Shown one piece after another: positions 24,243 to 62,743 of a DNA stretch of 64,000 nt. The notes beneath the pieces were generated by a model. The model did not search any database, was not told the DNA's origin, and saw nothing but the letters and a program-made list of their open reading frames with translations. Both the position numbers and the translations under genes were made by a program. The stretch comes from Elusimicrobiota bacterium (lineage in GTDB: Bacteria; Elusimicrobiota; Elusimicrobia; Elusimicrobiales; UBA9959), in the NCBI GenBank assembly GCA_009773155.1, contig WOVA01000014.1, forward strand, positions 27,434-91,433, in the 5' to 3' direction. Numbering within the stretch: position 1 is the stretch's first letter; the number at the start of each line of letters is the position of its first letter.

Positions 24243-24435
24243 TATTGACCTACGCGTAAGTAATAGAAATGCTGGCCGGGCCGATTTTGGAGCGAGACAA
24301 GGAACGAGGAGCGCGCATAGCGGGGGCTATGTAAGCGACTCACTCACAGACCGCCGGTATGCTCGTTCGTCGCGCCTCGCATTCATCTCAAATCCAAGCC
24401 TCCAGAAATTCTATTACTTACGCGTAGGTCAATAA
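24242..24435. mobile_element. MITE-like element with 27-bp perfect terminal inverted repeats
   Basis: The ends (24242-24268 and 24409-24435) are perfect inverted repeats beginning TTATTGACCTACGCG. The inner part stays imperfectly palindromic almost to the centre, so the whole 194 bp can fold into one long hairpin. It has no coding capacity. It occupies the exact gap between two genes of one operon: its right end supplies the stop codon of the dehydratase gene and its left end touches the ATG of the hydrolase gene. I see no second copy in the window. Confidence 0.85.
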
Positions 24436-25643: not shown

Positions 25644-26332
25644 TTTAGTTCCTCCAGCGCCCTGGCGTAGCCTTCGGGCGTGCCTATGTCCAGCAGAGGG
25701 GCGCCGGTCTCCCAGGCGCGCACCTGCCCGGCCGCGGCCAGCGCGGGCAGCAGGTCGCGTTCCATGGAGTACCTGACGCCCGGCGGGACTCTTTCCAGGA
25801 CGGTCTTCTCCAGCATGTATATCCCGGCGTTGACCAGGCCGGGGCCGGACGCGGACTTCTCCGCGAAAGCGAGCAGCCTGCCGTTCTCCCCGACGGAGAG
25901 GGCCCCGAAGGCGCCGGCGTCGTCGCGGCGGGAGGCGGCCAGCGAGACGGGCGAGCCGCCGGCCGCGTGGAACGAGGCGAAAGCCTCCAGGTCGGCGCGG
26001 CAGAAAGAATCGCCGTTGAGCAGCAGGAAGCGCGGCGTGCCGATCAGGCGCCCGGCGTTCTTCACCGCGCCGGCGGTATCGAGCGGCTCGGCCTCTATGG
26101 AGACCACTATCTCCAGGCCGGGCCGGCCGCCGTGAAAATGTTCCTCTATCATGCGGCCCATGTGGCCGGCGCAGAGGACGAAGCGGCGGAAGCCGAAGCC
26201 GGCCGCGTATTTCATCAGCAGGTCCAGGAAGGCGCCGCCGCCGACGGCGGCCAGCGGCTTGGGGCGGTCGGAGACCACGCTCCTGAGCCTGGTCCCCTTT
26301 CCGCCGCAGAGTATGACCGCGTCCATGCTCAT
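25640..26332 (-). CDS. hddC: D-glycero-D-manno-heptose 1-phosphate guanylyltransferase-like
   Basis: 230 aa NTP transferase: LCGGKGTRLRSVVSDRPKP, then LLLNGDSF. This is the HddC-type fold making GDP-heptose from heptose-1-P. The track ORF is over-extended; ATG 26332 overlaps the stop of the kinase gene (ATGA). Directly follows the HddA-like kinase, which strengthens the call. GmhA and GmhB are not in the window. Confidence 0.82.
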   Translation of the reverse strand: MSMDAVILCGGKGTRLRSVVSDRPKPLAAVGGGAFLDLLMKYAAGFGFRRFVLCAGHMGRMIEEHFHGGRPGLEIVVSIEAEPLDTAGAVKNAGRLIGTPRFLLLNGDSFCRADLEAFASFHAAGGSPVSLAASRRDDAGAFGALSVGENGRLLAFAEKSASGPGLVNAGIYMLEKTVLERVPPGVRYSMERDLLPALAAAGQVRAWETGAPLLDIGTPEGYARALEELK

Positions 26333-27312
26333 CGGTTGTAGAAGATCACCGAACTGCCGGAATCCTCGAATTTGAACGGCACGCGCAGCAGTTTGCGCAG
26401 CGCGCGCCGGATCGCCGCCTGCTTCCCGGGACCGGCGAAGAACAGCATGAAGCCGCCGCCGCCGGCGCCCAGCACCTTGCCTCCCAGCGCGCCCGCGCGG
26501 CGGGCCGAGGCGTAGATCTCGTCGAGGGCCGGCGTGGTGATGCGGTCGGTCAGCGAGCGCTTGAGCAGCCAGCTCTCGTGCAGCAGCCGGCCGAAGGCGG
26601 AGATATCCCCGCGTCCGTCTATTATCTCCACGGCGCGGTCCACCATGTCGCACATCCTGGAAAGCTCCCTGCCCTTGGCCGGGGTACATTTGACCTGCGC
26701 CGCGGCTATATCGGAGGCGGTGCGCTGTATGCCGGTGTAGAACAGCAGCAGGCGGTCCTGGAACTCCTTCATGCGCCCGGCGGAGGCGGTCAGCGGGCAG
26801 ACCTGCAGATGGCGCTTCGGGCCGAAACTTATAAGATTGCAGCCGCCGTAGGCGGCCGCCACCTGGTCCTGCGCGCCGACGTTCTCTTTGAGTATGTCCT
26901 GCTCGATCCGTATAGCGTCCAGGGCCAGCCTGTCCGCCGGCACCATCCGTCCCTTGAGAGCGTAGAGGGCTTTCAGCAGCCCGACGGTGAAAGAGGAGCT
27001 GGACCCTATGCCGGAGCGGGCCGGCAGGTCGCCGTCGTGATGTATCTCCACGCCGTCCTTTATCCGCATGAAGCGCAGGCAGGCGCGCACCGACGGGTGC
27101 TTTATCTCGGAGATCCTCATCACGTCCTCGGTGCGCGAATAGACGATGCGGTGCTTGTGGTCGTGGAAGGGCGGCAGCCAGCGGCAGGTGATATAGCAGT
27201 ATTTGTCTATGGTGGCCGAGAGCACCTGCCCTTTATTGCTGCGGTACCACGAGGGATAGTCGGTCCCGCCCCCGAAGAACGAGATCCTGTAGGGCGTCCT
27301 GCTGATTATCAT
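26329..27312 (-). CDS. hddA: D-glycero-D-manno-heptose 7-phosphate kinase-like (GHMP family)
   Basis: 327 aa GHMP kinase. It begins MIISRTPYRISFFGGGTDYP, has the ATP loop LPARSGIGSSSS and the C-terminal motif KVLGAGGGGFMLFF, the usual pattern of HddA. Phosphorylates C1 of heptose-7-P in the GDP-heptose route. Third gene from the end of the operon with epimerase, hddC and the 3-dehydratase, all overlapping or within 20 nt. Confidence 0.86.
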   Translation of the reverse strand: MIISRTPYRISFFGGGTDYPSWYRSNKGQVLSATIDKYCYITCRWLPPFHDHKHRIVYSRTEDVMRISEIKHPSVRACLRFMRIKDGVEIHHDGDLPARSGIGSSSSFTVGLLKALYALKGRMVPADRLALDAIRIEQDILKENVGAQDQVAAAYGGCNLISFGPKRHLQVCPLTASAGRMKEFQDRLLLFYTGIQRTASDIAAAQVKCTPAKGRELSRMCDMVDRAVEIIDGRGDISAFGRLLHESWLLKRSLTDRITTPALDEIYASARRAGALGGKVLGAGGGGFMLFFAGPGKQAAIRRALRKLLRVPFKFEDSGSSVIFYNR

Positions 27313-27331: not shown

Positions 27332-28285
27332 TCAGACATTGGAATACCGGTCCCGCCTGATGATGCGGAACGACTTGAGCAGCTCGGCTATTCCCCGGTC
27401 CAGGGAAAACTCCGGGCGGAAGCCGGTCGCCTCTATCTTGGCGTTGCTGACGATATAGTCGCGCTTGTCCGGGTCCTCTCCTATGGGCGACTCGTAGAAG
27501 TAGAACTCCGGCACGCGCTTCTTTATCGCGCGGCAGAGCTCCAGCTTGCTGAGGTTGGCGTCGCTCAGGCCCAGATTGTAGGTCTCGCCGCTCATCCGGC
27601 GCCAGTTCTTCATCGCGTGCCTGAAGGCCCGGGCCACGTCGCGCACGTGGATGAAGTTGCGCTTGAAATGCGCCTCGAAGAGCACCACGAAGCGGTCGTT
27701 GAAGGCCCTGAAGGCGAAGTCGTTGACCAGCAGGTCCAGCCGCATGCGCGGGCTCACGCCGAAAGCCGTGGCCAGGCGGAAGGTGGCGGAATTGCCCGCG
27801 GCCAGGAGCTTCTCCTCGGCGGCGTTCTTGAGCCGCCCGTAGAGGGAAACCGGCCGCAGGGGGGTCTTCTCCGTGCAGTAGCGCCCTTTCCGGCCTATGC
27901 CGTAGCCGCTGTTGGTGGTGGGGTAGAGCAGCGCCTGCGCGGGGGCCCTGTATTTCAGTATCACGTCGAGGGCGTCCAGGATCACGCCCTTCGCCTCGGC
28001 GGGGTTCCGGTCGCAGAGCGGCGCGCCGGTCAGGCAGGCCAGCGGGATTATCCAGTCGGCGTCCTTCAGCCCCTCCTTCACCAGCCTCTCGTCGCGGGCG
28101 TCGCCGCGTTCGACGGTGAAATCGGGGTGGGCGCAGCAGTCCAGCAGCGGGGCCTGGCCGTACATAAAATTATCCAGCACCTGGACCCTGAAGCCTTCCC
28201 GGAGCAGGGCCGGCACAAGGATGGACCCGATGTATCCGGCTCCGCCCGTGACCATGACCTTCTGTTTTTTAGCGGCTTTTTTCAT
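27332..28285 (-). CDS. NAD-dependent epimerase/dehydratase (extended SDR)
   Basis: 317 aa from ATG 28285 (MKKAAKKQKVMVTGGAGYIG). NAD motif GGAGYIGS, TTNSGYG, catalytic YGRLK, and a C-terminal substrate domain. Nucleotide-sugar epimerase, reductase or dehydratase; specificity not readable. The track start at 28342 falls two nt after the TATAAT box at 28345-28350 and is probably upstream of real translation. First gene of its operon. Confidence 0.83.
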   Translation of the reverse strand: MKKAAKKQKVMVTGGAGYIGSILVPALLREGFRVQVLDNFMYGQAPLLDCCAHPDFTVERGDARDERLVKEGLKDADWIIPLACLTGAPLCDRNPAEAKGVILDALDVILKYRAPAQALLYPTTNSGYGIGRKGRYCTEKTPLRPVSLYGRLKNAAEEKLLAAGNSATFRLATAFGVSPRMRLDLLVNDFAFRAFNDRFVVLFEAHFKRNFIHVRDVARAFRHAMKNWRRMSGETYNLGLSDANLSKLELCRAIKKRVPEFYFYESPIGEDPDKRDYIVSNAKIEATGFRPEFSLDRGIAELLKSFRIIRRDRYSNV

Positions 28286-28466
28286 ACCCTTATCACCTTG
28301 ACAGAACTGCGGGATCCGGCGCCTGTCCGCCGTTGTTCTCATATATTATAACTGAAACAGCGCCTCCCGGCTACCCGAAGGATCGCCCGAAGAATTGCCG
28401 GCTCCTCCCTGGAACAGAAAAGAGCCGGCGGCCGCGCCGCCCGCGCCGCGGGCAAATCCCTGGTTT

Positions 28467-32836: not shown

Positions 32837-33802
32837 TCAGAGGCGCAATTCCCCCCGGTGCGCGGCGTACCAGCGCAGCGTCCGCCTTATGCCCTCTTCC
32901 AGTCCGACGCGGCTCTTCCAGCCCAGCCGGGCCGCGGCGCGCGAGGAGTCCAGGCAGAGCCGGGTCCTGATGGACGGCCCGGAGCGGTCGAAAACTATCC
33001 GGAGGTCGCGGCCCGAGGCGGCGATGATCCGGCGCACCAGGTCCTTCACCGCCACGGCGCGCCCCGCGCCCGCGTTGAAAAGGCCGAAGGGCGCGCGCTG
33101 GCGGACCAGCGCCTTCTCCACGAAAGAGACGAGGTCCGAAACATAGAGCAGGTCCCGGGCCTCGCCGCCGTCGCCCCAGACCTTTATCTCGCCGCCGGGC
33201 GGCGCCGTCATAACCTTGGTGACGGTGGCGCCGAAGACATGCGAGCGCCTGAGGTCGAATTTATCGTGGGGACCGTAGACGTTGGAATGCCTGACCACGG
33301 TGTAGCGGGTGCGGCCCAGGCCGGCGTAGAATTGGCACATCCGCTCCAGGTAGACCTTGGTCCAGCCGGCGCCGAAATAGGCGGGGTGAAGCGGCGCGTT
33401 CGCGTCCAGGTCGTCCTCTTTCACCGGCCGGCGCGAGGAACCGTACATGATGGAGCAGCTGAAGAAGAGGAGCTGCCCCACGCCGTGCTCGTGCGCGGCG
33501 CGGAAGAGCAGCGAGTTCATGACGGCGTTGTCGGTCACGTGCAGCCAGGGGCTGTTGACTATGTCGCCGGCGCCGGAGGTGACCGCAGCGGCCTGCACAA
33601 TTATGTCCACGCCCTTCACCGCCCTGGAGACCGCCGCGCGGTCGGTGAGGTCGCACTTGAAGATCCTGACGCCGGGGAGGCGGGGAGCCGGGGAGTGCAG
33701 CCGCGTGCCGCTGACCTCGTATTTCCCCCCGCGGGCCAGCGCCTCCGCTATATTGCGGCCGATGAAGCCGGTGGCGCCGCAGACCAGCACCTTCTTCTTC
33801 AC
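32837..33802 (-). CDS. GDP-fucose synthase-like NAD-dependent SDR
   Basis: 321 aa. Start is the GTG at 33802, overlapping the previous stop (GTGA); the 458-aa track version is spurious. NADP motif CGATGFIGRNIAEAL, FFSCSIMYG, and FGAGWTKVYLERM. The catalytic tyrosine-lysine spacing is unusual: Y-x6-K instead of Y-x3-K. HSNVYGPHDKFDLRRSHVFG resembles Fcl/WcaG-like reductases. It could be the 3,5-epimerase/4-reductase partner of the gmd or 3-dehydratase pathway. Confidence 0.78.
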   Translation of the reverse strand: MKKKVLVCGATGFIGRNIAEALARGGKYEVSGTRLHSPAPRLPGVRIFKCDLTDRAAVSRAVKGVDIIVQAAAVTSGAGDIVNSPWLHVTDNAVMNSLLFRAAHEHGVGQLLFFSCSIMYGSSRRPVKEDDLDANAPLHPAYFGAGWTKVYLERMCQFYAGLGRTRYTVVRHSNVYGPHDKFDLRRSHVFGATVTKVMTAPPGGEIKVWGDGGEARDLLYVSDLVSFVEKALVRQRAPFGLFNAGAGRAVAVKDLVRRIIAASGRDLRIVFDRSGPSIRTRLCLDSSRAAARLGWKSRVGLEEGIRRTLRWYAAHRGELRL

Positions 33803-34515
33803 CGGGCCCTCCCGCGCGGCCTGCCGTCGAGCACCAGCCTCTCCCCGCGGGAGCGGCTGAAAAAAGAATAGATCCGGCGGGCGGTCTCGTCGGCGCGCTG
33901 GCCGTGGGTGAATTCGGGCCTGGTCATGACGCGCGAGAGATAGACGTCCGCGATACGCACGCCCGTCCCCTCCGCCTCGCGGCGCAGCGCCGCCGAGAAG
34001 CCGCGCAGTCCCCACTTGGCGGCCGAATACACGGCGCGCCGGGGATGGGCCTCCAGCGCGCAGACCGAATTGATGTTTATGATGGCGCCCCTGCCGCGCG
34101 CGGCGAACGCCGCGTAGGCGCGGGCCGCCAGTTTGACGGGGGCGGCGAAGTCGACCTGTATCAGCTCGTCGACGGCGGGGCCGGAGACTTTCTCCAGCGG
34201 CAGGCCGGGGCAATGGATGCCGGCGTTATTGACCAGCACCGACAGGCCCGGCCGCCGGAAGAGGCGGAAAAGTTTCGCAAGACCGGCGCGCGAGCGCAGG
34301 TCGGCCCGGCGGACCTCGCAGCGCGCGCCAAGGGCGGTCACCGCGCGGGCCGCGCGCGCCAGGGCGGCGCGGTCCCTGCCGTGCAGGATCACGCCGTACC
34401 CGCCGGCGGCGAAGGCGAGAGCCAGCTCCAGCCCCAGGCCCCTGCCCGAACCGGTGATGAGGACGTCCCCCGGGGAAACCGCCCCGCCGGGAACGTTTTT
34501 TAGCGCCTTCAGCAT
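33799..34515 (-). CDS. Classical SDR oxidoreductase
   Basis: 238 aa. Cofactor motif TGSGRGLG, VNNAG, catalytic Ser and YSAAK. Looks like a 3-oxoacyl-ACP reductase-type or sugar-modifying dehydrogenase. The ATG at 34515 lies seven nt after TATAAT with no ribosome binding site, so it is probably leaderless. Translationally coupled to the downstream SDR. Confidence 0.82.
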   Translation of the reverse strand: MLKALKNVPGGAVSPGDVLITGSGRGLGLELALAFAAGGYGVILHGRDRAALARAARAVTALGARCEVRRADLRSRAGLAKLFRLFRRPGLSVLVNNAGIHCPGLPLEKVSGPAVDELIQVDFAAPVKLAARAYAAFAARGRGAIININSVCALEAHPRRAVYSAAKWGLRGFSAALRREAEGTGVRIADVYLSRVMTRPEFTHGQRADETARRIYSFFSRSRGERLVLDGRPRGRAR

Positions 34516-34621: not shown

Positions 34622-36586
34622 ATGATGCCCACTGACGGCAAAGACGGCCAGCTGACGATAGGCTTCGTCCAGATAAACTACGAGTTCTCAGGCCAGCATT
34701 ACCTGCCGCTCTCGGTGGGCATGCTGAAGGCCTATCTCAGGAAGAACGCGGACCGCCCGGCCCGCTACCGTTTTCTGCCCGTCCTTTTCAGGCGCGAGAA
34801 GATCGAGGAGGCGGCCCGGCTCCTCGCCGGGGCCGACATCGCCGCTTTCAGCGTCTACAGCTGGAACATCAACCTCTCGCTGGCCATAGCCCGCCGCCTC
34901 AGGGAGCTCAACCCCTCGGTCCTCACGGTCTTCGGCGGCCCGCAGGTCCCGTCGCGGGCGGGAGACTTCCTGCGCGATAACCCCTTCATAGATATAGTCT
35001 GCCACGGCGAGGGCGAGGAGGTCTTCAAGGCCGTGGCCGACCGCGCCGCCTCCCGCGACTGGTCCGGCGTGCCGTCGGTCAGCTACCTGCGCCCCGACGG
35101 CTCCTGCGTCAGTGCGGCCCGCGCCTGCCGCGTCGCCGACCTCGACAGCCTGCCCTCCCCCTTCCTCGACGGCACTTTCGACGAGCTGGCCGCGGAGAAT
35201 CCCGGCGTGAAGTGGCTGGGCCTGCTGGAGACCAACCGCGGCTGCCCCTTCGCCTGCGCCTTCTGCGAGTGGGGCGACAAGGGGATGAACCGCGTCTACG
35301 CCTTCGGCCTGGAGCGCGTGCGCGCCGAGATAGACTGGCTGGCCCGGCACGCCGTCGAGTTCGTCTTCTGCTGCGACGCCAATTTCGGCCTGCTGCCGCG
35401 CGACGTGGAGATAGCCGGCTTCGTGGCCGACGCCAGGAAGCGGACCGGCTACCCGCACACCTTCTCGCTGCAGGCCAGCAAGAACGCGCCGGAGCGGGTC
35501 TACAGGATACAGAAGCTCCTGGCCGACAGCGGCCTCAACAAGGGCGCCCTCTTCGCCCTGCAGTCGGTGCACCCGGAGACGCTGGAGCTCATACACCGGC
35601 GGAACATCTCGCTGAACTCCTTCGACGAGCTGCAGCGCCTTTTCAAGCGCGACGGCATCCCCACTTTCACCGACGTCATCGTGGGCCTGCCCGGCGAGAC
35701 CTACGACTCCTTCGCCGACGGCGTGGACGGCATCATCTCCAAGGGCCAGCACAACCGCGTACAGTTCAACATCCTCTCCATACTCCAGAACTCCGCCATG
35801 GGCGACCCCGCCTACCGCGCGCGCCACGGCCTGGTCACCGTCCGCTCCGAGCTGGCCAACAGGTACGGCCGGCACTCCCGCGACGCGGAGGAAGTGCTGG
35901 AATACCAGGACCTGGTGGTCGCCACGGCCGCCATGCCGGCGGAGGACTGGGTCAGGGCGATGACCTTCGCCTGGCTGGCCTCTTTCCTCCATTTCGACAA
36001 GCTGCTGCAGCTGCCGTCGGTGCTGCTCAACGCGGAGGCCGGCGTGCGCTACCGCGCTATCTTCGAGGCTTTCGCCGCCTGTCCGGCGGGGGAGTTCCCG
36101 GTGACGGCCGGCGTGCGCTCCTTCTTCGAGGAGAAGGCGCGCGCCATAAGGCGCGGCGAGCCCGAGTACTGCCACGCGCCGGACTGGCTGGACATCTGGT
36201 GGATGACCGACGAGCACGCCTATATCGGCCTCTGCCGCGGCGGAAAACTGGACGACTTCTACGCGGAGGCCGGCCGCCTGCTGCGCGGCCTGGCGGCGGA
36301 GCGCGGCGCCGGCGTGCCCTGGCTGGACGACGCGCTGCGGCTGAACCGCGAGCTCATAAAGCTCCCTTTCCTCTACGGGAAGAAGGAAGTGGCGCTCGGC
36401 TTCAATGTCCGCGAGAGCCACGCCGCCGCGCTGGCCGGCGCCCGGCTGCCGCTGCGCGGGGCCGCCGGCTCCTGTGCGGTGGACAGAAGTTCCCCCCGCT
36501 GGGACAACTGGGAGGACTGGATGAAGGAAGTCGTCTGGTTCGGCAACAAGACCAGGAATTATCTCTACGCCTGCGGGGACCGGTGA
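34622..36586 (+). CDS. B12-binding-type radical SAM protein
   Basis: 654 aa. An N-terminal cobalamin-binding-like domain (FGGPQVPSR; CHGEGEEVF) precedes the radical SAM core with CPFACAFC (CxxxCxxC, [4Fe-4S] ligands, about residue 210) and GLPGETYDSF. Probably methylates or rearranges a sugar or lipid intermediate. The dedicated cobalamin ligand motif DxHxxG is not evident, so B12 use is uncertain. Its stop overlaps the GTG of the aldo/keto reductase (GTGA). Confidence 0.85.
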   Translation: MMPTDGKDGQLTIGFVQINYEFSGQHYLPLSVGMLKAYLRKNADRPARYRFLPVLFRREKIEEAARLLAGADIAAFSVYSWNINLSLAIARRLRELNPSVLTVFGGPQVPSRAGDFLRDNPFIDIVCHGEGEEVFKAVADRAASRDWSGVPSVSYLRPDGSCVSAARACRVADLDSLPSPFLDGTFDELAAENPGVKWLGLLETNRGCPFACAFCEWGDKGMNRVYAFGLERVRAEIDWLARHAVEFVFCCDANFGLLPRDVEIAGFVADARKRTGYPHTFSLQASKNAPERVYRIQKLLADSGLNKGALFALQSVHPETLELIHRRNISLNSFDELQRLFKRDGIPTFTDVIVGLPGETYDSFADGVDGIISKGQHNRVQFNILSILQNSAMGDPAYRARHGLVTVRSELANRYGRHSRDAEEVLEYQDLVVATAAMPAEDWVRAMTFAWLASFLHFDKLLQLPSVLLNAEAGVRYRAIFEAFAACPAGEFPVTAGVRSFFEEKARAIRRGEPEYCHAPDWLDIWWMTDEHAYIGLCRGGKLDDFYAEAGRLLRGLAAERGAGVPWLDDALRLNRELIKLPFLYGKKEVALGFNVRESHAAALAGARLPLRGAAGSCAVDRSSPRWDNWEDWMKEVVWFGNKTRNYLYACGDR

Positions 36587-37563
36587 AATACAGACAACTG
36601 GGCGGGACCGGCCTCTCGGTCTCCGAGATAGGCTTCGGCGCCTGGGGGCTGGGCGGCGACAAGGGCGGCTCGCGGGCCTACGGCCCCGTCGACGACGCCG
36701 AATCCTCCCGCGCGCTGCGCCGGGCACTGGACCTGGGCGTTAATTTCTTCGACACTTCCGATTTCTACGGCTTCGGCCACAGCGAGGAGATCATAGGCCG
36801 CGCCTTTCGCGGCGACCGCGACAGGGTGATCATCGCCAGCAAGGCCGGCATGCTCGACGCCGAAGGGCGGCAGGATTTCTCCCCCGCCCGCCTGCGCTCG
36901 TCGCTGGAGGCCACGCTGCGCCGGCTGGGCACCGACCGGCTGGACCTTTACCAGCTGCACAGCCCGCCGGTCGGGCTGCTGCTGGAAAAACCCGAGATAC
37001 TGGGCACGCTCAGGGACCTGGCCCGCGAAGGCAAGATACGCGCCTGCGGGGTCTCGCTGCGCTCGCCCGACGAAGGACTTAAGCTCCTGGGGGCGGCCGT
37101 GACCGGCTGCGTGCAGGTGAATTTCAACCTGGCCGACCAGCGGGCCCGCGTCAACGGCCTGCTGGACCTGTGCCGCTCGAAGGGGACGGGCGTAATAGCC
37201 CGCACGCCGCTCTGCTTCGGTTTCCTGACCGGCCTCTACACCGAAACCTCTTCGCTGCCCGGGAGCGACCACAGGCGCCGCTGGTCCCCGGCGCAGGTGG
37301 AGCGCTGGAACCAGGCCGCCGGGCTCTTCGCCGCCGCGCTGGGCCTGCCCGGCGCGCAGACCCCCGCCCAGGCCGCGCTGCGCTTCTGCCTCTCCTACCC
37401 GGGGATAACCTCGTCCATACCGGGCATGCTGACCGCCGCCCAGGTGGAGGAAAACGCGGCGGCCAGCGGCCTGGGGCCGCTGACCGACGAGGCTCTCATC
37501 AAAGTGCAGGAACTTTACGGCAACGGCGATTTCATGGAAGGCCCGGTCAGAACGGGCCCTTGA
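36583..37563 (+). CDS. Aldo/keto reductase
   Basis: 326 aa, hidden inside a spurious 783-aa track ORF. Start is the GTG at 36583 (coupled, GTGA). Family pattern: YRQLGGTGLSVSEIGFGAWG, DTSDFYGFGHSEEIIG (catalytic Tyr), DLYQLHSPP, and SSIPGMLTAAQVEEN. NADPH-dependent reductase, likely acting on a keto-sugar made by neighbouring enzymes. Its 3' end overlaps the convergent E1 beta gene by 17 bp. Confidence 0.88.
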   Translation: MKYRQLGGTGLSVSEIGFGAWGLGGDKGGSRAYGPVDDAESSRALRRALDLGVNFFDTSDFYGFGHSEEIIGRAFRGDRDRVIIASKAGMLDAEGRQDFSPARLRSSLEATLRRLGTDRLDLYQLHSPPVGLLLEKPEILGTLRDLAREGKIRACGVSLRSPDEGLKLLGAAVTGCVQVNFNLADQRARVNGLLDLCRSKGTGVIARTPLCFGFLTGLYTETSSLPGSDHRRRWSPAQVERWNQAAGLFAAALGLPGAQTPAQAALRFCLSYPGITSSIPGMLTAAQVEENAAASGLGPLTDEALIKVQELYGNGDFMEGPVRTGP

Positions 37564-38605
37564 ATTCCTTGCGGAGCTTCCTCTTGAATTCTTCCGACGG
37601 CAGCGGGCGCCCGTGCCCGGGGCCCAGCGCCAGCGAATAACACTTGTCCACCACCGTCCCCATATCGGGGTAGAAGGAGTTCTCCAGCGCCTTGGCCGTA
37701 GGGCAGGGCGCGTGGGCCGGCGCGGCCTCGGCCACCGGCGCCTTGAGCGCGCCCGGGTCCGAGACGGCGACGGCGCGGCAGATCTCGGCGCAGACGCCGT
37801 AGGACGCCCAGCCGGTGTCGGCCACCAGCAGCCTGCCGGTCTTGCGCACGCTTGAAAGGACCAGGCCCAGGTCGCGGGCGGTGAGGCAGTGCAGGTCTAT
37901 GACCTCGGCCTCGATCCCCGCCTCCCTGCTCATATAATCGGCGGCGTGCAGCGCGTCTATCACCATCGAGGAGACGGCCACCACGGTCACGTCGCGGCCC
38001 GCGCGCGCCAGCCTCGGGGCGAAGGGGTCCGCCGGCGGCGGCGCGTCGGGCAGATTGAACGAATAGTCGTAGAGCAGCCGGTGCTCCAGCGAGATGACCG
38101 GCCCCTTGAATTTCTTCACCGCGTGGGCGTAGGTGTCCAGGACGGAGGCGGCCGAGGCCGGCATCACCACGGTCAGGCCCGGCACGTGCGCGAACAGGGC
38201 CTGCAGGCTCTGCGAATGCTGCGCGCCCTGCCCCCAGCTGCGCCCCACCACCGACCGTATCAGCAGCGGCAGCTGGAAAAGCCCGCCGTACATATAGCGG
38301 TACTTGGCGATGGAATTGACCACCTGGTTCATCGTCAGCAGCGTGAAGTCGTTGCGGATGTGTATGTGTATCGGGTAGAGACCGTTGAGCGCCGCGCCCA
38401 CGGCCAGCCCGGTCATGGCGTCCTCGGAGAGCGGGGTGTCGAAGACCCTGCCCGGTCCGAATTCCTTCTCGAGACCCAGCGTGGTGCCGAAGATGCCGGT
38501 GAAATCGGTCACGCCCAGGCCGTATATGAGGCAGCCCGGGTCGGAGACCATGGCGTCGCGCATGCTGAGCTTGAGCGCCTCGCGGTAGGTCATCGTCGCG
38601 GTCAT
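37547..38605 (-). CDS. TPP-dependent dehydrogenase E1 beta-like subunit
   Basis: 352 aa from ATG 38605, overlapping the alpha stop (ATGA). Transketolase-like pyrimidine domain (RVFDTPLSEDAMTGLAVGAA, AQHSQSLQALFAHVPGL) and C-terminal transketolase domain (GRLLVADTGWASYG). The canonical GEEV stretch, whose Glu activates TPP in pyruvate dehydrogenase E1 beta, is GLGV here. No E2 or E3 gene is nearby. Such pairs occur in glycan loci, where the reaction is unclear. Confidence 0.82.
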   Translation of the reverse strand: MTATMTYREALKLSMRDAMVSDPGCLIYGLGVTDFTGIFGTTLGLEKEFGPGRVFDTPLSEDAMTGLAVGAALNGLYPIHIHIRNDFTLLTMNQVVNSIAKYRYMYGGLFQLPLLIRSVVGRSWGQGAQHSQSLQALFAHVPGLTVVMPASAASVLDTYAHAVKKFKGPVISLEHRLLYDYSFNLPDAPPPADPFAPRLARAGRDVTVVAVSSMVIDALHAADYMSREAGIEAEVIDLHCLTARDLGLVLSSVRKTGRLLVADTGWASYGVCAEICRAVAVSDPGALKAPVAEAAPAHAPCPTAKALENSFYPDMGTVVDKCYSLALGPGHGRPLPSEEFKRKLRKEFKGPF

Positions 38606-39528
38606 ATCACGTCCTTGAAAGTATCGGAGGCCGGCGGCACCGGGCTGGCCTCGGCGAAAGCGACGGCCTCGTCTATCTCGCGTTCTATCTCCGGCCGCAG
38701 TTCGTCTGCCAGCGCCGCGTCCGTTTCCAGCGGGTCGCGGCAGCGCCAGTCGCCCACTTCCCGCGGGCAGCGGTAGCCTTTGTCCAGGTCGCCGTCCACT
38801 CCCACATGCTGCAGGTAACGGCAGGTCTTTATCTCGAACACCGCCGGCCCCTCCCCCGCCCGCGACGCGGCCAGCACGGGGGCGAAGGCCGCCGCCACGC
38901 CTTCCAGGTCGAAGCCGTCGGGCGCCATGGCGTACCGGATGCCGTAGGCGCCGGCCAGAGCCTCCAGGCGGTAGGCCTGCCTGTTCTCTATGCGCGCGTG
39001 TATGGCCAGGCCGTTGTTCTCCACCACGAAGACCACCGGCAGCTTCTTCAGCGAGGAGAAGTTGAGGCACTCGGAGAAGACGCCCTCCTCGGTGGAGCCG
39101 TCGCCGGTGACCGAGACTGCTACCCGGGGCTCGTTCTTAAGTTTGAAAGCGTAGGCGGCCCCCATCGCGTGCGGCAGCGTGGCCCCCACTATGGCCGAAG
39201 AGCCCATCAGCCCCGCCTCGGGGGCGCAGAGATGCATGGAGCCGGCCTTGCCGCCGGAGATCCCGCCGGCGCGGCCGTAGAGCTCGGCGAACATTTTCTT
39301 CATATCGCCGCCCTGCGCCAGGTAGAGGGCGTGGCTGCGGTAGGTGGTATAGACCTGGTCGCCGGGCAGCAGCGAGGCCGCCAGCGCGGCGGCGTGATGC
39401 TCCTGGCCCAGCGACAGGTGCACGGGGCTCTGTATCTTGTCGCTGGGATAGATCTCGGCCACCTTCAGCTCGGCCAGGCGCACGCGCAGGGCCTGGCGGA
39501 ACAGCTCCCGGTAAGAAGGCGCGGTCAC
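38602..39528 (-). CDS. TPP-dependent dehydrogenase E1 alpha-like subunit
   Basis: 308 aa from GTG 39528, which overlaps the rmd stop (GTGA); the track start at 39555 lies inside rmd. TPP motif GDGSTEEGVFSECLNFSSL and KLPVVFVVENN, substrate-channel motif YRSHALYLAQGGD. Forms an alpha2beta2 enzyme with the next gene. Expected to decarboxylate or transfer a two-carbon unit; its presence with Rmd, Rml and radical SAM genes suggests sugar modification. Confidence 0.86.
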   Translation of the reverse strand: MTAPSYRELFRQALRVRLAELKVAEIYPSDKIQSPVHLSLGQEHHAAALAASLLPGDQVYTTYRSHALYLAQGGDMKKMFAELYGRAGGISGGKAGSMHLCAPEAGLMGSSAIVGATLPHAMGAAYAFKLKNEPRVAVSVTGDGSTEEGVFSECLNFSSLKKLPVVFVVENNGLAIHARIENRQAYRLEALAGAYGIRYAMAPDGFDLEGVAAAFAPVLAASRAGEGPAVFEIKTCRYLQHVGVDGDLDKGYRCPREVGDWRCRDPLETDAALADELRPEIEREIDEAVAFAEASPVPPASDTFKDVI

Positions 39529-40517
39529 GCCGGCACCCCCGCGGCCCGCCTGCATTCCTCCAGCAGGAAGGCCACGCTCCCGGCGAAAGAGCGGCGCGGC
39601 CTCCAGCCGGTGGCGCGGCGGAACTTGGAGGTATCGGGCACCTGCAGCGTCACGTCGGTGGGGCGGAACAGGGCGGGATCTGGTTTTGACGGAATAGGCC
39701 GCCGGGCCAGCCGCTTGAGCTCCTTAAGGAAATCGGCCACGGTTATCACCGTCTCGCCGCCTATATTGTAGGCCTCGCCAAAAGCGCACTTCTCCGCCGC
39801 GACCCAGTAGGATTCCATGGCGTCGCGCACGTCGATGATGGTCCGCACGGAATCCAGGTTGCCGTGCAGCAGCGTCTTCTGCAGGCCGGCCTCTATCCGG
39901 GCCACCTGCATGGCGAAAGAGGTGGCGAAGAGGTCGGAGCGGCGCGGGTTGATGTAGGAGAACATCCGCGTCCGGATTATCTTCATCCCGTAGTTCAGGA
40001 AATAGGTGCGCCCCAGCAGGTCCTGCGCGGTCTTGGAGACGGCGTAGGGACTGGCCGGGTTCAGCGGGCAGTCCTCTTTGATGGGAACATCGCGCGGGGC
40101 CACCTGGCCGTACACCTCGGAGGTGCTGCAGAGCTGTATGACCGGGTCCAGGCCGGAGAGCCTGGCCGCCTCCAGGAGATTAGCCGTGCCCATGATGTTA
40201 TTGTTGAGGACGGCCAGGGGCGTGATGAAGGAAGCGCGCACATTGGCGTGCGAGGCCACGTGGAAGACGGCGTCGGGCCGTGAGGCCTTGAGCGCCGTGA
40301 GCACCGACGAAAAGTCGGTCAGGTCGCATTCGTGCACCCGCGCGGCGGCGGAGCGGCGGCGCGGGCCGGCCGACGGGGGCGCGGCGTGCCAGCGCGAAAT
40401 GCCGTGGATCTCCACGCCCGGCCTGTTCTCCGCTATATAGTCGGCCAGGTAACTGCCGCCCGAGCCGGTTATACCGGTTATCAGGACTCGCTTGATCTTT
40501 CTGGCTTTCGCGGGCAT
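39525..40517 (-). CDS. rmd: GDP-6-deoxy-D-mannose reductase
   Basis: 330 aa from ATG 40517, with GGGGAGAAGAG upstream. Extended SDR: GITGSGGSYLADYI, SEVYGQVAP, SPYAVSKTAQDLLG, IDVRDAMESYW, RPTDVTLQVPDTSKFRRATGW. These match Rmd, which reduces GDP-4-keto-6-deoxymannose to GDP-D-rhamnose, downstream of Gmd. The family's usual RPFNHIGPRQ is RMFSYINPRR here, so the substrate could differ. Confidence 0.82.
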   Translation of the reverse strand: MPAKARKIKRVLITGITGSGGSYLADYIAENRPGVEIHGISRWHAAPPSAGPRRRSAAARVHECDLTDFSSVLTALKASRPDAVFHVASHANVRASFITPLAVLNNNIMGTANLLEAARLSGLDPVIQLCSTSEVYGQVAPRDVPIKEDCPLNPASPYAVSKTAQDLLGRTYFLNYGMKIIRTRMFSYINPRRSDLFATSFAMQVARIEAGLQKTLLHGNLDSVRTIIDVRDAMESYWVAAEKCAFGEAYNIGGETVITVADFLKELKRLARRPIPSKPDPALFRPTDVTLQVPDTSKFRRATGWRPRRSFAGSVAFLLEECRRAAGVPA

Positions 40518-40557
40518 CTCTTCTCCCCTTGCGTTCCCCCCGGGAGAACGCGACAAT

Positions 40558-40596: not shown

Positions 40597-42321
40597 CTAT
40601 CTGCCGCCCCGCAGAATATGCGTGTAGGTCTCGTCGGGCCTGGGCGGCAGCGCTATAGTCGCGTTCACTTTGCGCAACGGTTCGCGGACAAGACCGAAAA
40701 ACGGCTTTTTCTTTACGGATATCATGCGGTAAACCGCCCTCAGCGTTGCGCGCGGCCCGCAGGATGCCAGCATCATCATATATTTCAGGAGAAAGCGCCT
40801 GACGCCCGCCGGCAAGAGCATGTAGATCGCCGCGTATCTGTACCGGTTGACCTTTTTGCGCTTTAAGGTCCGGAAGAGCCCGTGCTTCTTCATGTAGGCG
40901 ACGATCAATTCCAGAAAAACGTAGTTCTTCCAGTAGACGACCTCTTCTTTTTCGTAGTCGGTGAAATTCAGGTAATGCCTGATATCGTTCGCGTTGACGC
41001 CGTAGAGGTTCTCAATGTACCGCTCTTCGTCGTCCAGCGAGCGGCCGATCAGCCCCACGTTACGCGCATATTCATACCCCGGCGTTCCCGGAACGGCCTG
41101 GAAATAGTTGATGCAGATCTCGTAGGGCGTATCGATGTCGTCCGGTATCGCCAGGGCGAGGTTGCGGATCGTCTCGCCGATGGTCTCCTCCGTCTCTCCG
41201 GGCATCCCGATGAGGAGCAGCACCGTCGTGTGTACCCCGTTCCTGAACGCTCCGTTCAGGGCTTCCAAGTTTTGCGCTACCGTGGTCCTTTTCTCCATTA
41301 CATCCAGCATTTTCCGGGAACAGGACTCTATCCCGAAACTTATCAGCACGCAGCCGGCTTCTTTCCATTCCCGGATGGTGCTCTCGCTGATGGTGTCCGT
41401 CCTGGTGCCCCCGACGGTCCAGTTCAACCGGCGGGATCTCAGATAAGCGACCAGCTCCGCCGTCTTCCTTTTATCGGCGCCGAAATGTTCGTCCTGGAAC
41501 TGGATCAGCCCGATATCCCGCGTTCTTATCAATTCCTCGATGTGGGCTATCACGGACAGCGGGGCTAGGGTGCTGTGCCCCCTGAAAAATCTATGGCAGA
41601 ACGAGCACCTCCCCACGCAGCCCTTGCAGGACACGACGTTCGCCAGCCTCTTGTGGACGTTTTCCGGAAAGAACATCCCGTAAAAGCCGCCGATCTCATG
41701 GCGGTTGATCCAGTTCTTATACGGCCCGTCGGTGACCTTCGGGAAGAATTCGATACCGGTAAATTCGGCCATCCTGCCGTAATTCATCTGGAGCAATCCG
41801 TTCTTCCCCGGCTCCGCGTAGCCGGTAAAAAAGGGGATACCGCCGGACATGAAAGCCAGTCCTTTGATATCCGAGAATCTCCGGGGGTCCGACAGGTCGA
41901 AACCGGCTTCCGCCAGCCTGGAGATGAGGCCGCTGAACGCCGGCTCCGATTCGCCGGTGACGCAGAAATCGATCTTCGTCCTTTGCAGAAGGATGTTAGC
42001 CATCACCGACATCTGTCCCCCGAGAACCTGGACGACGCCGGGAAAATGCTCCTTGAGGCGCGAAGACAGGTCTTTCAAGTACGCGTACGCGTGGGTAAGT
42101 ATGGCGCTGAAGCCGAAAATGTGGGGCGGCGCTTGGGCGAGCCTGTCCCTGAGCTCTTCGAAACTAAGCGGGGCGTTGGCGAGATCTATGAAATCCACCT
42201 CGCATTCCAGGGCCGGGTCCAGGCCGTCGATCACCCTGGAAATGCCTATCGGGTAGGTTCTATCCGGGAAACCGCTGGGGAGGGTGAAGAGGGTTATTCT
42301 GGGACGGCAACGCTTATTCAT
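40597..42321 (-). CDS. B12-binding-type radical SAM protein
   Basis: 574 aa. N-terminal cobalamin-binding-like Rossmann domain (HIFGFSAILTHAY, VLGGQMSVM), then the radical SAM core with CKGCVGRCSFCHR, IQFQDEHFG, GIESCSRKMLD and GMPGETEETI. The C-terminal 150 aa are basic and may contact membrane lipid. Possible sugar or lipid methylation or rearrangement. GGTGA lies six nt before the ATG. Confidence 0.83.
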   Translation of the reverse strand: MNKRCRPRITLFTLPSGFPDRTYPIGISRVIDGLDPALECEVDFIDLANAPLSFEELRDRLAQAPPHIFGFSAILTHAYAYLKDLSSRLKEHFPGVVQVLGGQMSVMANILLQRTKIDFCVTGESEPAFSGLISRLAEAGFDLSDPRRFSDIKGLAFMSGGIPFFTGYAEPGKNGLLQMNYGRMAEFTGIEFFPKVTDGPYKNWINRHEIGGFYGMFFPENVHKRLANVVSCKGCVGRCSFCHRFFRGHSTLAPLSVIAHIEELIRTRDIGLIQFQDEHFGADKRKTAELVAYLRSRRLNWTVGGTRTDTISESTIREWKEAGCVLISFGIESCSRKMLDVMEKRTTVAQNLEALNGAFRNGVHTTVLLLIGMPGETEETIGETIRNLALAIPDDIDTPYEICINYFQAVPGTPGYEYARNVGLIGRSLDDEERYIENLYGVNANDIRHYLNFTDYEKEEVVYWKNYVFLELIVAYMKKHGLFRTLKRKKVNRYRYAAIYMLLPAGVRRFLLKYMMMLASCGPRATLRAVYRMISVKKKPFFGLVREPLRKVNATIALPPRPDETYTHILRGGR

Positions 42322-42378: not shown

Positions 42379-43509
42379 TCAGGCGCGACTGCGACGGTAG
42401 TTTTTGTCCAGCCATTTACGGTAAGCCCCGGTCTTGACGTTCTTCACCCAGCCTGGATTGTCCAGGTACCAGCGCACGGTGCGCAGTATGCCGCCGGTGA
42501 AGTCTGCCGACGGGCGCCAGCCCAGTTCGCGCTTCAGTTTGGAAAAATCTATGGCGTAGCGCCGGTCATGGCCGGGGCGGTCTTTGACGAAGGTTATGAG
42601 GTCCTCGTAATTCTTGCCTTTGAGGGCGGGATTCTCCGGCGAGGGGAGCAGTTCTTCAAGCGCGGCGCAGACATTCTTCACCACGTCGATATTCTTCATC
42701 TCGCAGTCGCCGCCCACATTGTAGGTCTCGCCGGGGCGGCCTTTAAGCAGGATGCGCCAGACGGCGGCGCAATGGTCCTCCACGTAAAGCCAGTCGCGGA
42801 CGTTCCTGCCGTCGCCGTAAACGGGCAGCGGTTTCCCCTCCATCGCGTTGAGTATGACCAGCGGGATGAGTTTCTCGGGGAAGTGCCAGGGCCCGTAATT
42901 ATTGGAGCAGTTGGAGATGGTCACCGGCAGGCCGTAGGTGTGATGGTAGGCGCGGACCAGGTGGTCGGACGCGGCCTTGGAGGCGGAATACGGGCTGCGC
43001 GGGTCGTAGGGAGTGGTCTCTTTGAACTTGCCCGTGGCGCCCAGCGAGCCGTAAACCTCGTCGGTGCTGACATGGTGGAAGCGGACGTCCCTGCGGCCGG
43101 CGGAGGCGCCGGTCCCCTGACCGGCGGAGGCGCCGGTCCCATGACCGGCCCAGGCCGAGCGGGCGGATTCCAGCAGCGCGAAGGTGCCGTGGATATTGGT
43201 CTCCACGAAATCCCTGGGGCCGAAGATGGAGCGGTCCACGTGCGATTCGGCGGCGAAGTGGGCCACGGCGTCGAACTTGTGCTTTTTGAACAGCCGGCCC
43301 AGCAGAGCGAAATCGCAGATATCGCCTTTGACGAAAACATAGCGGTCTTTGTACTTGCGGCCGATATCGGCGAGATTCTCCGGATTACCGGCGTAGGTCA
43401 GCTTGTCGAGGTTGACGATAAGGCCTTTAAATCCGGACCGCTCCAGGACATAGCGCACGAAATTAGAACCGATAAATCCGGCTCCGCCGGTGACAAGTAT
43501 CGTCTTCAT
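42379..43509 (-). CDS. rmlB: dTDP-glucose 4,6-dehydratase
   Basis: 376 aa from ATG 43509 ([20 protein letters not shown]). NAD motif, [19 protein letters not shown], catalytic YSASK, and [15 protein letters not shown] are intact. Second step of dTDP-rhamnose synthesis. The variable loop before the STDEVYG strand carries two tandem copies of an 8-residue insert (SAGQGTGA), encoded by palindromic DNA. ATGA overlap with rmlD. Confidence 0.95.
43097..43144. repeat. 24-bp tandem repeat with palindromic core in rmlB
   Basis: Two near-identical units (43097-43120 and 43121-43144; one base differs) containing GCCGGTCcc(c/a)tGACCGGC. They encode (A/S)GQGTGA-type loops. The same palindrome lies in the ATPase gene at 18431. 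Confidence 0.85.
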
Positions 43510-44345
43510 TTGTTCTCCCCGATGAATTTCTCCATGGAATCCCGCCAATGCGGGAGCTTAATACCGATCTGGCCGCATAGCGCCGCGTTGGACATGGCCG
43601 AATAGCCCGGCCGGCGGGCGGCGAGACCAAAATCGGCCATTTTGGCCGGGACCATTTCCTTCTCCACGCCGTACGCCCTGAGGGCCGCCCGCGCCCAGTC
43701 ATAGCGCGAGCACGGCTCTCCTCCGGAAAGATGCCAGCGGCCGGTGAGGCCGGCCTTAAGCGCCTCCATGACGGCCGCGACGGCGTCGGAGGCGCGGGTA
43801 GGGACGGAAACCTCGTCGTCGGCCACGCGCAGCGGGCCGGGCTTCTCCGCCCAGCCCAGCAGCTTATGCATGAAGTTCTGTGTGCCCCGGCCGTATACCC
43901 AGCTCAGCCGCAGTACCAGCGAGCCGGGGCAGTCCAGGGCGTATTCCTCGCCCTTGAGTTTGGACCGGCCGTATTCATTGAGAGGGTTGACGGCGTCCGT
44001 CTCGACATAAGGGACGCGCTTCTCACCGTCGAAGACATAATCGGTGCCGAAGTGGAGCAGCTTGGATTCCAGCTGCCGGGCGGCGAAGGCCAGGTTGCGC
44101 ACGCCCCCGGCATTGACGGCGGCGGCGGCGGCGGGCTCGGCCTCGGCCTTGTCCACCAGGTTATAGGCCGCGCAGTTTATGATGAGGCCGGGGCGGTACG
44201 GCATGACGGCCTTCAGGACGGCGTCGCCGTCGGCGATATCCAGCGTATCCAGGTCGGCGGCGGCGTATTCCCAGCCGTTCCCCTCGAAAAGACGGACGAA
44301 CTCCGCTCCCAACTGGCCTTTTGAACCGGCGATGAAAACGCGCAT
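43506..44345 (-). CDS. rmlD: dTDP-4-dehydrorhamnose reductase
   Basis: 279 aa from ATG 44345 ([17 protein letters not shown]). Final step to dTDP-L-rhamnose. GTDYVFDG, catalytic [13 protein letters not shown], and [15 protein letters not shown] all fit RmlD. Its start overlaps the rmlC stop (TGATG). The track start is 24 codons upstream inside rmlC. Confidence 0.94.
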
Positions 44346-44887
44346 CAGAATTTTGCGTCCTTGAGAAAGGGCAGGGCGGCGTCCCTGGGCGAGAGCAGGG
44401 GCGAGGGATTCCCCCACCTCACTCCGACCTCCGGGTCGTCCCAGCGTATCCCCCCCTCGTCGGGCGGCGAATACTCAGCGGTGCATTTATACATAAACTC
44501 GGCCGTTTCGCTGAGGGTAAGGAAACCGTGCGCGAAGCCGGGAGGGAAATACAGCATGAAAGCGTTCTCGGCACTCAGTTCCACCGCCAGCCACCGGCCG
44601 AATGTAGGCGAATCCCGGCGTATATCCACGCCCACGTCGAGGACAGCGCCGCCCACGCAGCGCACCAGCTTTCCCTGGGCGGCCGCTCCGCGCTGAAAAT
44701 GCAGGCCGCGCAGCACGCCCTTGGCTGACCTGGAATGATTATCCTGGACGAAATCGCCGGGGACGCCGGCCTGGATGAAATCGCTCCGCTTGAAAGACTC
44801 CATCGCGAAGCCGCGGGGATCGGGAAAGACGCGCGGCTTCACCAGGACGCAGCCTTCGAGGGAGAGTTTCTCGAATTCGAAAGGCAT
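44345..44887 (-). CDS. rmlC: dTDP-4-dehydrorhamnose 3,5-epimerase
   Basis: 180 aa cupin, normal length. FPDPRGFAMESF, QDNHSRSAKGVLRGLHFQ (catalytic His region), YFPPGFAHGFLTLSE. Third step of dTDP-rhamnose synthesis, one nt downstream of rmlA. Confidence 0.95.
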   Translation of the reverse strand: MPFEFEKLSLEGCVLVKPRVFPDPRGFAMESFKRSDFIQAGVPGDFVQDNHSRSAKGVLRGLHFQRGAAAQGKLVRCVGGAVLDVGVDIRRDSPTFGRWLAVELSAENAFMLYFPPGFAHGFLTLSETAEFMYKCTAEYSPPDEGGIRWDDPEVGVRWGNPSPLLSPRDAALPFLKDAKF

Positions 44888-44888
44888 A

Positions 44889-45764
44889 TTACTCCCCGCC
44901 GGCCACTTTGCGCAGGTAGGCGCCGTAGCTGTTCTTGCTCAGGCCGTCGGCCAGTTTTAGCAGCGCGGCCCGGTCTATCCAGCCCTGCGAGTAGGCGATC
45001 TCCTCTATGCAGGCGATCATCAGGCCCTGCCGCTTCTCGACGGTGGCGATAAAGTCCCCCGCCTCCAGCAGGCTGTCGAAAGTGCCGGTATCCAGCCAGG
45101 CGTAACCGCGGCCCAGCAGCTCCACTTTAAGCGTGCCCTCCGCAAGATAGACCTTGTTGAGGTCGGTTATCTCCAGCTCGCCGCGCGCGCTGGGCTTTAT
45201 ACCGCGCGCCGCGCCGGCGACGCCACGGGGATAAAAATAAAGGCCGGTGACGGCGTAATTGCTCTTGGGCTTGGCGGGCTTCTCCTCTATGGAGAGCGCA
45301 CGACCGGACTTGTCGAAATAGACCACGCCGTAGCGCTCGGGGTCGTTGACATAATAGCCGAAGACGGTGGCCTGGCCGGCGGAGGCGGCGTGGACCGCCT
45401 TGCGGAAGGCCTCGGGCAGGCCGTGGCCGTAGAAGATATTGTCGCCCAGCACCAGGCAGGCGGTATCGTCGCCGATGAACTTCTCGCCGATGATAAGCGC
45501 CTGGGCCAGGCCTTCGGGCCGGGGCTGTTCGGCGTAGGAGAGCTTGAGACCCCAGCGCGAGCCGTCGGCGAAGATGGCCTTGAAGCGCGGCAGGTCAGCC
45601 GGCGTGGAGATGATGAGTATCTCCCGTATGCCGGCCAGCATCAGCGCCGACAACGGGTAATAGATCATCGGCTTGTCGTATACCGGCAGCAATTGCTTGC
45701 AGACCGGCATGGTGACCGGGTAAAGCCTTGTGCCGGACCCTCCGGCCAGTATGATCCCTTTCAT
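44889..45764 (-). CDS. rmlA: Glucose-1-phosphate thymidylyltransferase
   Basis: 291 aa. [33 protein letters not shown] core, [12 protein letters not shown], and the C-terminal [14 protein letters not shown]. First enzyme of the dTDP-rhamnose route; converts glucose-1-P and dTTP to dTDP-glucose. Order rmlA-C-D-B, tightly packed. A perfect REP-like hairpin lies 17 nt upstream of its ATG. Confidence 0.96.
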
Positions 45765-49296: not shown

Positions 49297-50100
49297 TTAA
49301 CCGGCTGAATTAATAGCGGCGGTGAGCGTATCTTTGCTGAAAAGCCTCAGCTCGGATTTATTCTCTAAAAATCTTTCGACATCTTTCTTCGCCGCGCCCA
49401 GGTCGATGCGCTCAGCCCTTTCCAGCATGAAGTCCTTAAAGTTCCCGGCGTTCACTCCGGGCGCCGTCCCCTGGCTTTGAGCCACGGCATTGTTGAGCAG
49501 TTCAAAATTCGGCTGCACCTTCCTGGCTAAATACCAGAAGAGATCATAAATATCGCGCCCCTTAGTATAGCGCCTGTAAAAAGAGGCGTGCAGCTTCCCC
49601 GCGAACAGTGACGGCAGGTCATAATGCGCCAGACTGAACAAATAGGTTTTATTAAGCACGGTGGTCTGCATTTTCCACCCGGCCGGCGGATTAGTGTCGA
49701 TCTCAAGTTTGATAGACAACTTTTCCCGTTTATGCCCCGACAAACCCAAAGCGTGCGGCAGTCCCGGGAAAGTCAAAAAAGCGGAATTCACGGTTTTATC
49801 CCTGTCCTTGTCCAGAACAGCGTTAAGACCGTTCAGCCGGAAATTTTTCTCAAGCCCGCCACAGAGCCCGCCGAAGTCATACCCGGCGGCGTTAAAAACA
49901 GAAAAGTCCAGATCCTCCGAAAACCGCCGCAGCCCGAAAACAACGCGCAACGCCGTGCCGCCGATAAAAGCGAGCCGGGAAAACGCGTCCTGGTCTGACA
50001 AAGATTTAAGCGCCAGTATCTGAAGGAACTCCCTGGCCTTATTGAGTTTATCTTCAACTGAGACTCCGCCCGCCAGTTCCTGCTTTAAAGCCTCGATCAT
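49297..50100 (-). CDS. AbiEii/AbiGii-like nucleotidyltransferase toxin
   Basis: 267 aa. FIGGTALRVVFGLRRFSEDLDFSV gives the GG...DxD core; later KLSIKLEID and SLFAGKLHASFYRRYTKGRDIYDLFWYL, the classic C-terminal K...D motif. Complete. Second gene, ATGA-coupled to the antitoxin in the usual order. Type IV toxin by family. Confidence 0.87.
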   Translation of the reverse strand: MIEALKQELAGGVSVEDKLNKAREFLQILALKSLSDQDAFSRLAFIGGTALRVVFGLRRFSEDLDFSVFNAAGYDFGGLCGGLEKNFRLNGLNAVLDKDRDKTVNSAFLTFPGLPHALGLSGHKREKLSIKLEIDTNPPAGWKMQTTVLNKTYLFSLAHYDLPSLFAGKLHASFYRRYTKGRDIYDLFWYLARKVQPNFELLNNAVAQSQGTAPGVNAGNFKDFMLERAERIDLGAAKKDVERFLENKSELRLFSKDTLTAAINSAG

Positions 50101-58049: not shown

Positions 58050-58066
58050 AATGCCTCTGTACTTAT

Positions 58067-62673: not shown

Positions 62674-62680
62674 TTCTGAT

Positions 62681-62686: not shown

Positions 62687-62743
62687 CAAAATATGATTAG
62701 TTTTGGAAACGTATGCTCTTGACGCCCCGCTGTGGCCGACGGC

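Follow-up and report, generated by a model that had tools for sequence, protein, structure and literature searches.

The window analysed here is the whole of a 64,000-nucleotide stretch of contig WOVA01000014.1 (GCA_009773155.1, positions 27,434 to 91,433) from an Elusimicrobiota bacterium, and the genes under study are two minus-strand open reading frames (ORFs) in a glycan locus that encode the alpha and beta subunits of an E1-type thiamin diphosphate (ThDP) enzyme. The first gene of the pair encodes the E1alpha-like subunit (P0002, 38602-39528), a protein of 308 amino acids with a GTG start and an E1_dh domain identified by Pfam (158 bits). The next gene encodes the E1beta-like subunit (P0001, 37547-38605), which is 352 amino acids in length and contains the Pfam domains Transket_pyr (86.8 bits) and Transketolase_C (71.5 bits). 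These domains bear out the E1 alpha/beta pair described in an earlier reading made from the letters alone (the sequence-only reading). The two genes share an ATGA at their junction, and the start of E1alpha shares a GTGA with the preceding gene, which encodes a short-chain dehydrogenase/reductase (SDR) designated SDR39. The AlphaFold model of E1beta (pLDDT 89.9, pTM 0.91) has human E1p beta (1ni4_B) as its top Foldseek match in the PDB, with TM-scores of 0.87/0.92, and identity to the human and Geobacillus E1beta chains is approximately 33%. Both subunits score under the cut-offs of the curated NCBIfam pyruvate dehydrogenase (PDH) E1 models, with 246.6 against 321 for beta and 235.1 against 393.85 for alpha.

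Judged from the alignment, the ThDP-binding and ThDP-activating residues of the pair are intact. The E1alpha chain has the complete ThDP/Mg motif GDG...NN, of which GDG and the second Asn are present in 150 of 150 glycan-type alpha subunits, and the Arg of the YR motif is also retained. In Geobacillus E1p, proton transfer through N1' of ThDP is set off by an invariant glutamate, beta-E59 (PMC2663715). By residue count of that beta chain, E59 lies within DTPLAE and E28 within GEDV. The N1' glutamate is retained in the window E1beta as Glu61 in DTPLSE, a column occupied by glutamate in 164 of 164 aligned homologues, and the DTP[IL][AS]E motif sits approximately 30 residues C-terminal to the GE[ED]V motif. 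The sequence-only reading had noted GLGV where PDH has GEEV, which agrees with the alignment (GE[ED]V in PDH), and had taken the activating glutamate region to be replaced and the ThDP chemistry to be possibly altered. Neither of these two claims survives, as GLGV aligns with beta-Glu28 and not with the N1' glutamate, which the window and all aligned homologues retain. That reading had itself named two observations that would speak against it, an acidic residue at the N1' position and E2 homologues elsewhere in the operon; the first is what is seen here, given the conserved Glu61, and no E2 homologue was found in the operon. Position 28 of the beta chain is mostly L, I, Q, V or M in glycan-type homologues and rarely E, with GEGV in a few members. 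By this comparison GxGV is a trait of the family and position 28 alone is not diagnostic; GLGV is no oddity of the window locus, since the glycan-type homologues vary at this position and the N1' glutamate lies elsewhere. Frank et al. in 2004 reportedly described beta Glu28, Glu88 and Asp91 as lining an acidic tunnel that joins the two active sites. The corresponding columns of the window E1beta hold Leu, Leu and Asn, and in E1alpha the Asp180 column holds Val (Gln in human) and Glu183 is retained.

A genome scan identified at least 547 relatives of the pair. The glycan-type beta chains compared (18, later 42) share the invariant residues H82, R84, D86, F87, W124, G125, H130, E174 and R176, a set mostly missing from the PDH chains examined, F87 and H130 aside. 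The window E1beta carries this signature as HxRxDF and GRSWGQGAQHS, together with a C-terminal tail ending in GPF. A C-terminal Gly-Pro-Phe following an extension of about 25 residues is found in 127 of 143 chains without Glu28 and in 0 GED-type PDH chains, and three GEGV chains also end in this way. The tail of the window protein (encoded at ~37547-37558) is strongly conserved and has low confidence in the single-chain model. In a quick tree of 148 beta chains, built with no bootstrap, the window protein falls within a clade of 47 members (clade A) with a Shimodaira-Hasegawa-like approximate likelihood ratio test (SH-aLRT) value of 100 and a branch of 0.88, and the human, Geobacillus and local PDH-type beta chains form a separate clade (SH-aLRT 100). 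Clade A spans about 11 phyla: Elusimicrobiota, Nitrospirota, Pseudomonadota, Myxococcota, Thermodesulfobacteriota, Bacteroidota, Verrucomicrobiota, Kiritimatiellota, Lentisphaerota, Omnitrophota and Fidelibacterota. Culturable carriers among the loci include Marinomonas aquimarina CECT 5080 (L073) and Catenovulum maritimum (L060). Nine glycan loci (L035, L039, L049, L051, L063, L068, L069, L071 and L072) each encode two E1alpha/E1beta pairs that have diverged and belong to different clades, which suggests two branching steps, successive or alternative. A homologous E1 pair with GQSV is also encoded on the Streptomyces griseofuscus plasmid pSGRIFU1 (L135, 13983-16029) among condensation-domain and ketosynthase/ACP (acyl carrier protein) genes, with no sugar cluster, and a branched-sugar antibiotic cluster was not found among the plasmid regions inspected.

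No E2 partner was found for the pair. Pfam 2-oxoacid_dh (PF00198) has no match in the whole source genome, which is listed as 100% complete with 1.63% contamination, and the same domain was matched in 10 of 14 known genomes searched as a control. The sequence-only reading had noted the lack of E2, and this now extends genome-wide. Only three Transket_pyr genes are present in the source genome, the window E1beta included. A neighbourhood search with an annotated plasmid-borne E2 as the query placed an E2 gene near E1 in 12 of the 14 PDH-type loci, and it found none in any glycan-type locus or in the window.

The window locus is predicted to encode enzymes that make keto sugars, namely a C4-dehydrogenase-like and a 4,6-dehydratase-like SDR, and four partner proteins have a heptose-pathway protein as their best PDB match. 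The first of these is a GHMP kinase (26329-27312, minus strand) resembling HddA of the heptose-7-phosphate 1-kinase family, with the D-glycero-D-manno-heptose kinases 3k85 and 4n3o as best matches. The next is an HddC-like nucleotidyltransferase of the sugar-1-phosphate guanylyltransferase type (25640-26335, minus strand), for which the best matches, 6jq8/5xhw, are described as '6-deoxy-D-mannoheptose pathway protein'. SDR27 (27332-28342, minus strand) resembles a GDP-heptose C4-dehydrogenase, with 6vo6/6vo8 as best phmmer matches at 397 bits and the next family at 75. The match table names these entries only as putative epimerase/dehydratase; we take them to be Cj1427, the GDP-heptose C4-dehydrogenase of Campylobacter jejuni. 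SDR39 (39525-40556, minus strand), which overlaps the E1alpha start, is GDP-heptose-4,6-dehydratase-like, with 7us5 as the best phmmer match (180 bits). The translational coupling of the pair to this gene had been noted in the sequence-only reading, which called it rmd; the overlap stands, but assignment as rmd, a C4-reductase, is less likely, given profile scores of 352 bits to 7us5 and 291 to the reductase 2pk3. A DegT-family protein (24429-25643, minus strand) is RfbH-like and has His184 in place of the pyridoxal phosphate (PLP) lysine along with a CxCx2C...C motif. This replacement is known in sugar C3-dehydratases such as ColD and RfbH, and the window protein is probably a pyridoxamine phosphate (PMP)/[2Fe-2S] sugar C3-dehydratase. 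Approximately 36 glycan loci have the His, and those with the Lys belong mainly to basal clades of the E1 tree; a role as an aminotransferase acting on the branch was ruled out because the window protein and its counterparts in nearly all loci of the wider group carry the His. Outside the window's clade, 23 of 42 loci have a DegT gene immediately next to the E1 pair.

Two further enzymes are encoded on the plus strand. An aldo-keto reductase (36583-37563; PF00248, 195.7 bits), whose 3' end overlaps that of E1beta, is a candidate reductase of a branch ketone. It is coupled by a GTGA to the upstream gene for a KedN5-like B12-binding radical S-adenosylmethionine (SAM) protein of the C-methyltransferase family (34622-36586; NF033712 284 bits, under the 700 cut-off). 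This two-gene unit (34622-37563) recurs in clade A loci and lies beside E1 cassettes in Reyranella/Rhodospirillales. A second B12-binding radical SAM protein, BchE/HpnJ-like, is encoded on the minus strand (40597-42321) and is not conserved with E1; the two radical SAM genes that the sequence-only reading placed beside the pair are thus both present. An SDR resembling GDP-fucose synthase is found at 32837-33808 on the minus strand, and homologues of it lie near E1 in 29 of the 47 clade A loci. Elsewhere in the source genome, a SIS/GmhA-like protein at G000:C3 exceeds the Pfam cut-off with 94.6 bits.

Synteny was examined by tblastn of the window proteins against approximately 100 loci, consisting of the best 79 of the at least 547 relatives and 20 chosen phylum regions, which are non-independent and in many cases lie on short contigs; genes were counted as near when within 9 kb of E1. 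Of the 47 clade A loci, 40 have a homologue of SDR39 near E1, 34 one of the GHMP kinase, 31 one of the nucleotidyltransferase, 18 one of the aldo-keto reductase and 14 a split transketolase, and none of the five is near E1 in any of the 14 PDH-type loci. The nearest relatives (L113, L114 and L115) encode the kinase, nucleotidyltransferase, DegT C3-dehydratase, SDR27, SDR39, E1alpha and E1beta in one run, and the window splits these cassette genes into two blocks (28342-24429 and 40556-37547). The heptose genes are conserved with the pair across the loci and the rml genes are not. A link to dTDP-rhamnose genes as a trait of the family was ruled out by this synteny. Four loci (L049, L062, L099 and L115) also encode an acetolactate synthase (ALS)-like protein and the split transketolase beside the E1 pair, giving three ThDP types in one glycan locus. 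These two are the other ketone-accepting ThDP groups (PMC12247030), though the split transketolase might instead supply sedoheptulose 7-phosphate.

On this combination of gene content and analogy, we think it fairly probable that the pair is an E2-independent ThDP carboligase that would use pyruvate as acetyl donor and the C4 ketone of a GDP-4-keto-heptose as acceptor to give a C-branched surface sugar. It is the simplest reading because a ThDP E1 without E2 is tied here to enzymes that make C4-keto sugars. In the proposed pathway, GDP-4-keto-heptose would be formed by the HddA-like kinase and HddC-like guanylyltransferase together with the C4-dehydrogenase, the 4,6-dehydratase or both, and the His-type DegT enzyme would remove the 3-hydroxyl, often before acetyl transfer. 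E1alpha/E1beta would then decarboxylate pyruvate and pass an acetyl anion equivalent to the C4 ketone, with a 4-C-acetyl branched (GDP-)heptose as the expected product. The aldo-keto reductase may convert the acetyl branch to hydroxyethyl, and a C-methyl group may be added by the radical SAM enzyme, after which the branched heptose would be transferred to a surface glycan. The donor, acceptor, stereochemistry and product of the pair are those that we infer. The sequence-only reading had offered C2-unit transfer or decarboxylation in a sugar modification; the transfer is now the best supported of these, on the other grounds of GDP-4-keto-heptose synteny, the C3-dehydratase, the ketoreductase and antibiotic E1-type precedents, and decarboxylation of the sugar finds no support.

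Several described systems serve as precedents. YerE places an acetyl group from pyruvate on CDP-3,6-dideoxy-4-keto-glucose, the E1-type KbDH-alpha/beta joins pyruvate to ketones in vitro, and the branch ketone of known products is reduced, methylated, oxidised or transaminated (PMC12247030). AviB1/B2 of avilamycin and Pau11/12 of paulomycin are assigned the same C2-transfer step, and in the latter pathway the resulting acetyl branch is reduced by Pau7, an aldo-keto reductase (PMC4425429, PMC4753412). The alphaKADH2 antibiotic enzymes (KbDH-alpha/beta, AviB1/AviB2, Pau11/Pau12, EvdU5/EvdS3 and the aldgamycin enzyme) are, like the window pair, E1alpha/E1beta proteins of a sugar pathway with keto-sugar-making enzymes nearby (PMC12247030, PMC4425429, PMC10338323), and the window pair shows two of the features expected of this group, an E1alpha/E1beta pair with no E2 in a sugar biosynthesis locus and keto-sugar enzymes in that same locus. 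They belong to actinobacterial secondary metabolism and act on nucleotide-activated or attached hexoses/pentoses, whereas the window family lies in GDP-heptose surface-glycan loci of many Gram-negative and uncultured phyla. In a 2025 review, E1-type ketone-branching enzymes are assigned chiefly to antibiotic biosynthesis and those of the YerE type to lipopolysaccharide (PMC12247030). YerE acts for the O-antigen sugar yersiniose A and resembles the proposed activity in that a nucleotide-3,6-dideoxy-4-keto sugar destined for a surface polysaccharide receives acetyl from pyruvate, but it is a single-chain ALS-type decarboxylase using a CDP-hexose, in contrast to the E1-type alpha/beta pair and GDP-heptose proposed here. 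In C. jejuni, a 4,6-dehydratase and a PLP C3-dehydratase produce GDP-6-deoxy-4-keto- and GDP-3,6-dideoxy-4-keto-heptose (PMC10440746) and Cj1427 produces GDP-4-keto-heptose (PMC10680097), so that the same enzymes as in the window lead up to GDP-4-keto-(3-deoxy/6-deoxy)-heptose (PMC10680097, PMC10440746). The 4-keto group is there epimerised and reduced, whereas in the window an E1 pair stands where the C4-reductase would be; PMC10680097 mentions neither thiamin nor branching.

Two other explanations concern the enzyme itself. An ordinary pyruvate or branched-chain 2-oxoacid dehydrogenase E1 producing acetyl-CoA would account for the fold, the ThDP site, the N1' glutamate, the alpha/beta architecture and the identity of about one third that the pair shares with human and Geobacillus PDH E1. 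A PDH complex was ruled out by the genome-wide E2 search, and the separate clade, the NCBIfam scores far under cut-off and the glycan synteny also make such an E1 highly improbable. The window pair further departs from PDH E1 in having no acidic residue at beta-28/-88/-91, in its motifs HxRxDF and GRxWGQ and in the C-terminal extension ending in GPF. Even less credible is a lost activating glutamate with altered ThDP chemistry, as in glyoxylate carboligase; GLGV in place of GE[ED]V invites this explanation, which was ruled out by the alignment, as GE[ED]V holds beta-Glu28 and the N1' beta-Glu59 is conserved as Glu61.

The remaining alternatives keep an active carboligase or decarboxylase and change its substrate. 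A side role, in which a 2-oxoacid decarboxylase or acyloin synthase acts upstream of or beside the sugar and provides the acyl group, aldehyde or carbon skeleton of a different decoration, fits the intact ThDP machinery, and E1 enzymes alone can perform carboligation with simple acceptors (PMC7696235). It is nonetheless unlikely, as direct transfer to the sugar agrees better with the tight coupling to C4-ketone-forming enzymes and with the known precedents. Marginally less likely still is a carboligase acting on dTDP-4-keto-6-deoxyglucose from the adjacent RmlA/RmlB, or on another non-heptose keto sugar. The antibiotic alphaKADH2 enzymes do use deoxy-keto-hexose derivatives (PMC12247030), but conservation alongside the pair is seen for the heptose genes and not for rml, and in the nearest relatives the pair forms one run with the heptose operon. 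Several observations nevertheless weigh against transfer to a GDP-heptose. The rmlABCD genes (42379-45764, minus strand) lie in the same minus-strand gene run as the pair. The kinase scores 136.9 bits against the NCBIfam HddA cut-off of 600, the nucleotidyltransferase is under the HddC cut-off at 131 bits and scores 148 as a mannose-1-phosphate guanylyltransferase, and the GmhB-like HAD protein of the source genome is under its cut-off (95.8 bits, 149.6 required). The presence of both a C4-dehydrogenase and a 4,6-dehydratase in the window leaves the exact acceptor ambiguous. C2 transfer from pyruvate to a ketone is proposed or shown for the alphaKADH2 enzymes, and the likeness drawn here between them and the window pair is one of gene context and assigned function. 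Given how the loci were selected, the locus counts are not unbiased frequencies.

Extended to the family, the preferred reading of a carboligase acting on GDP-4-keto-heptose would describe a pathway not previously described, in at least eleven phyla, in which an E1-type ThDP carboligase with its own signature and GPF tail acylates GDP-4-keto-(3-deoxy/6-deoxy)heptose at C4 and some loci add ALS-type and split-transketolase enzymes to make multiply branched sugars. This broader proposal is tentative, with odds a little short of even. No report of an E1 pair in a GDP-heptose glycan locus was found in the literature searched, which misses most subscription journals. If correct, E1-type carboligases acting on GDP-heptoses would be common in surface-glycan loci across the bacterial tree, forming branched sugars not yet reported by glycan chemistry and constituting a large family of tertiary-alcohol-forming biocatalysts, and automatic annotations of such genes as pyruvate dehydrogenase would need correcting. 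A direct assay is possible, as published routes allow the acceptors to be prepared with enzymes.

Outside the glycan genes, the window encodes four AbiEi/AbiEii-like type IV toxin-antitoxin pairs within its 64 kb (3655-5029, 49297-50726, 56537-58088 and 61500-62838), with AbiEii called by Pfam and PADLOC and AbiEi by PADLOC. AAA_14/DUF4143 ATPases are encoded at 2424-3587 and 55135-56295, and similar ORFs were recognized by eye at 17684-18961 and 62744-63883.

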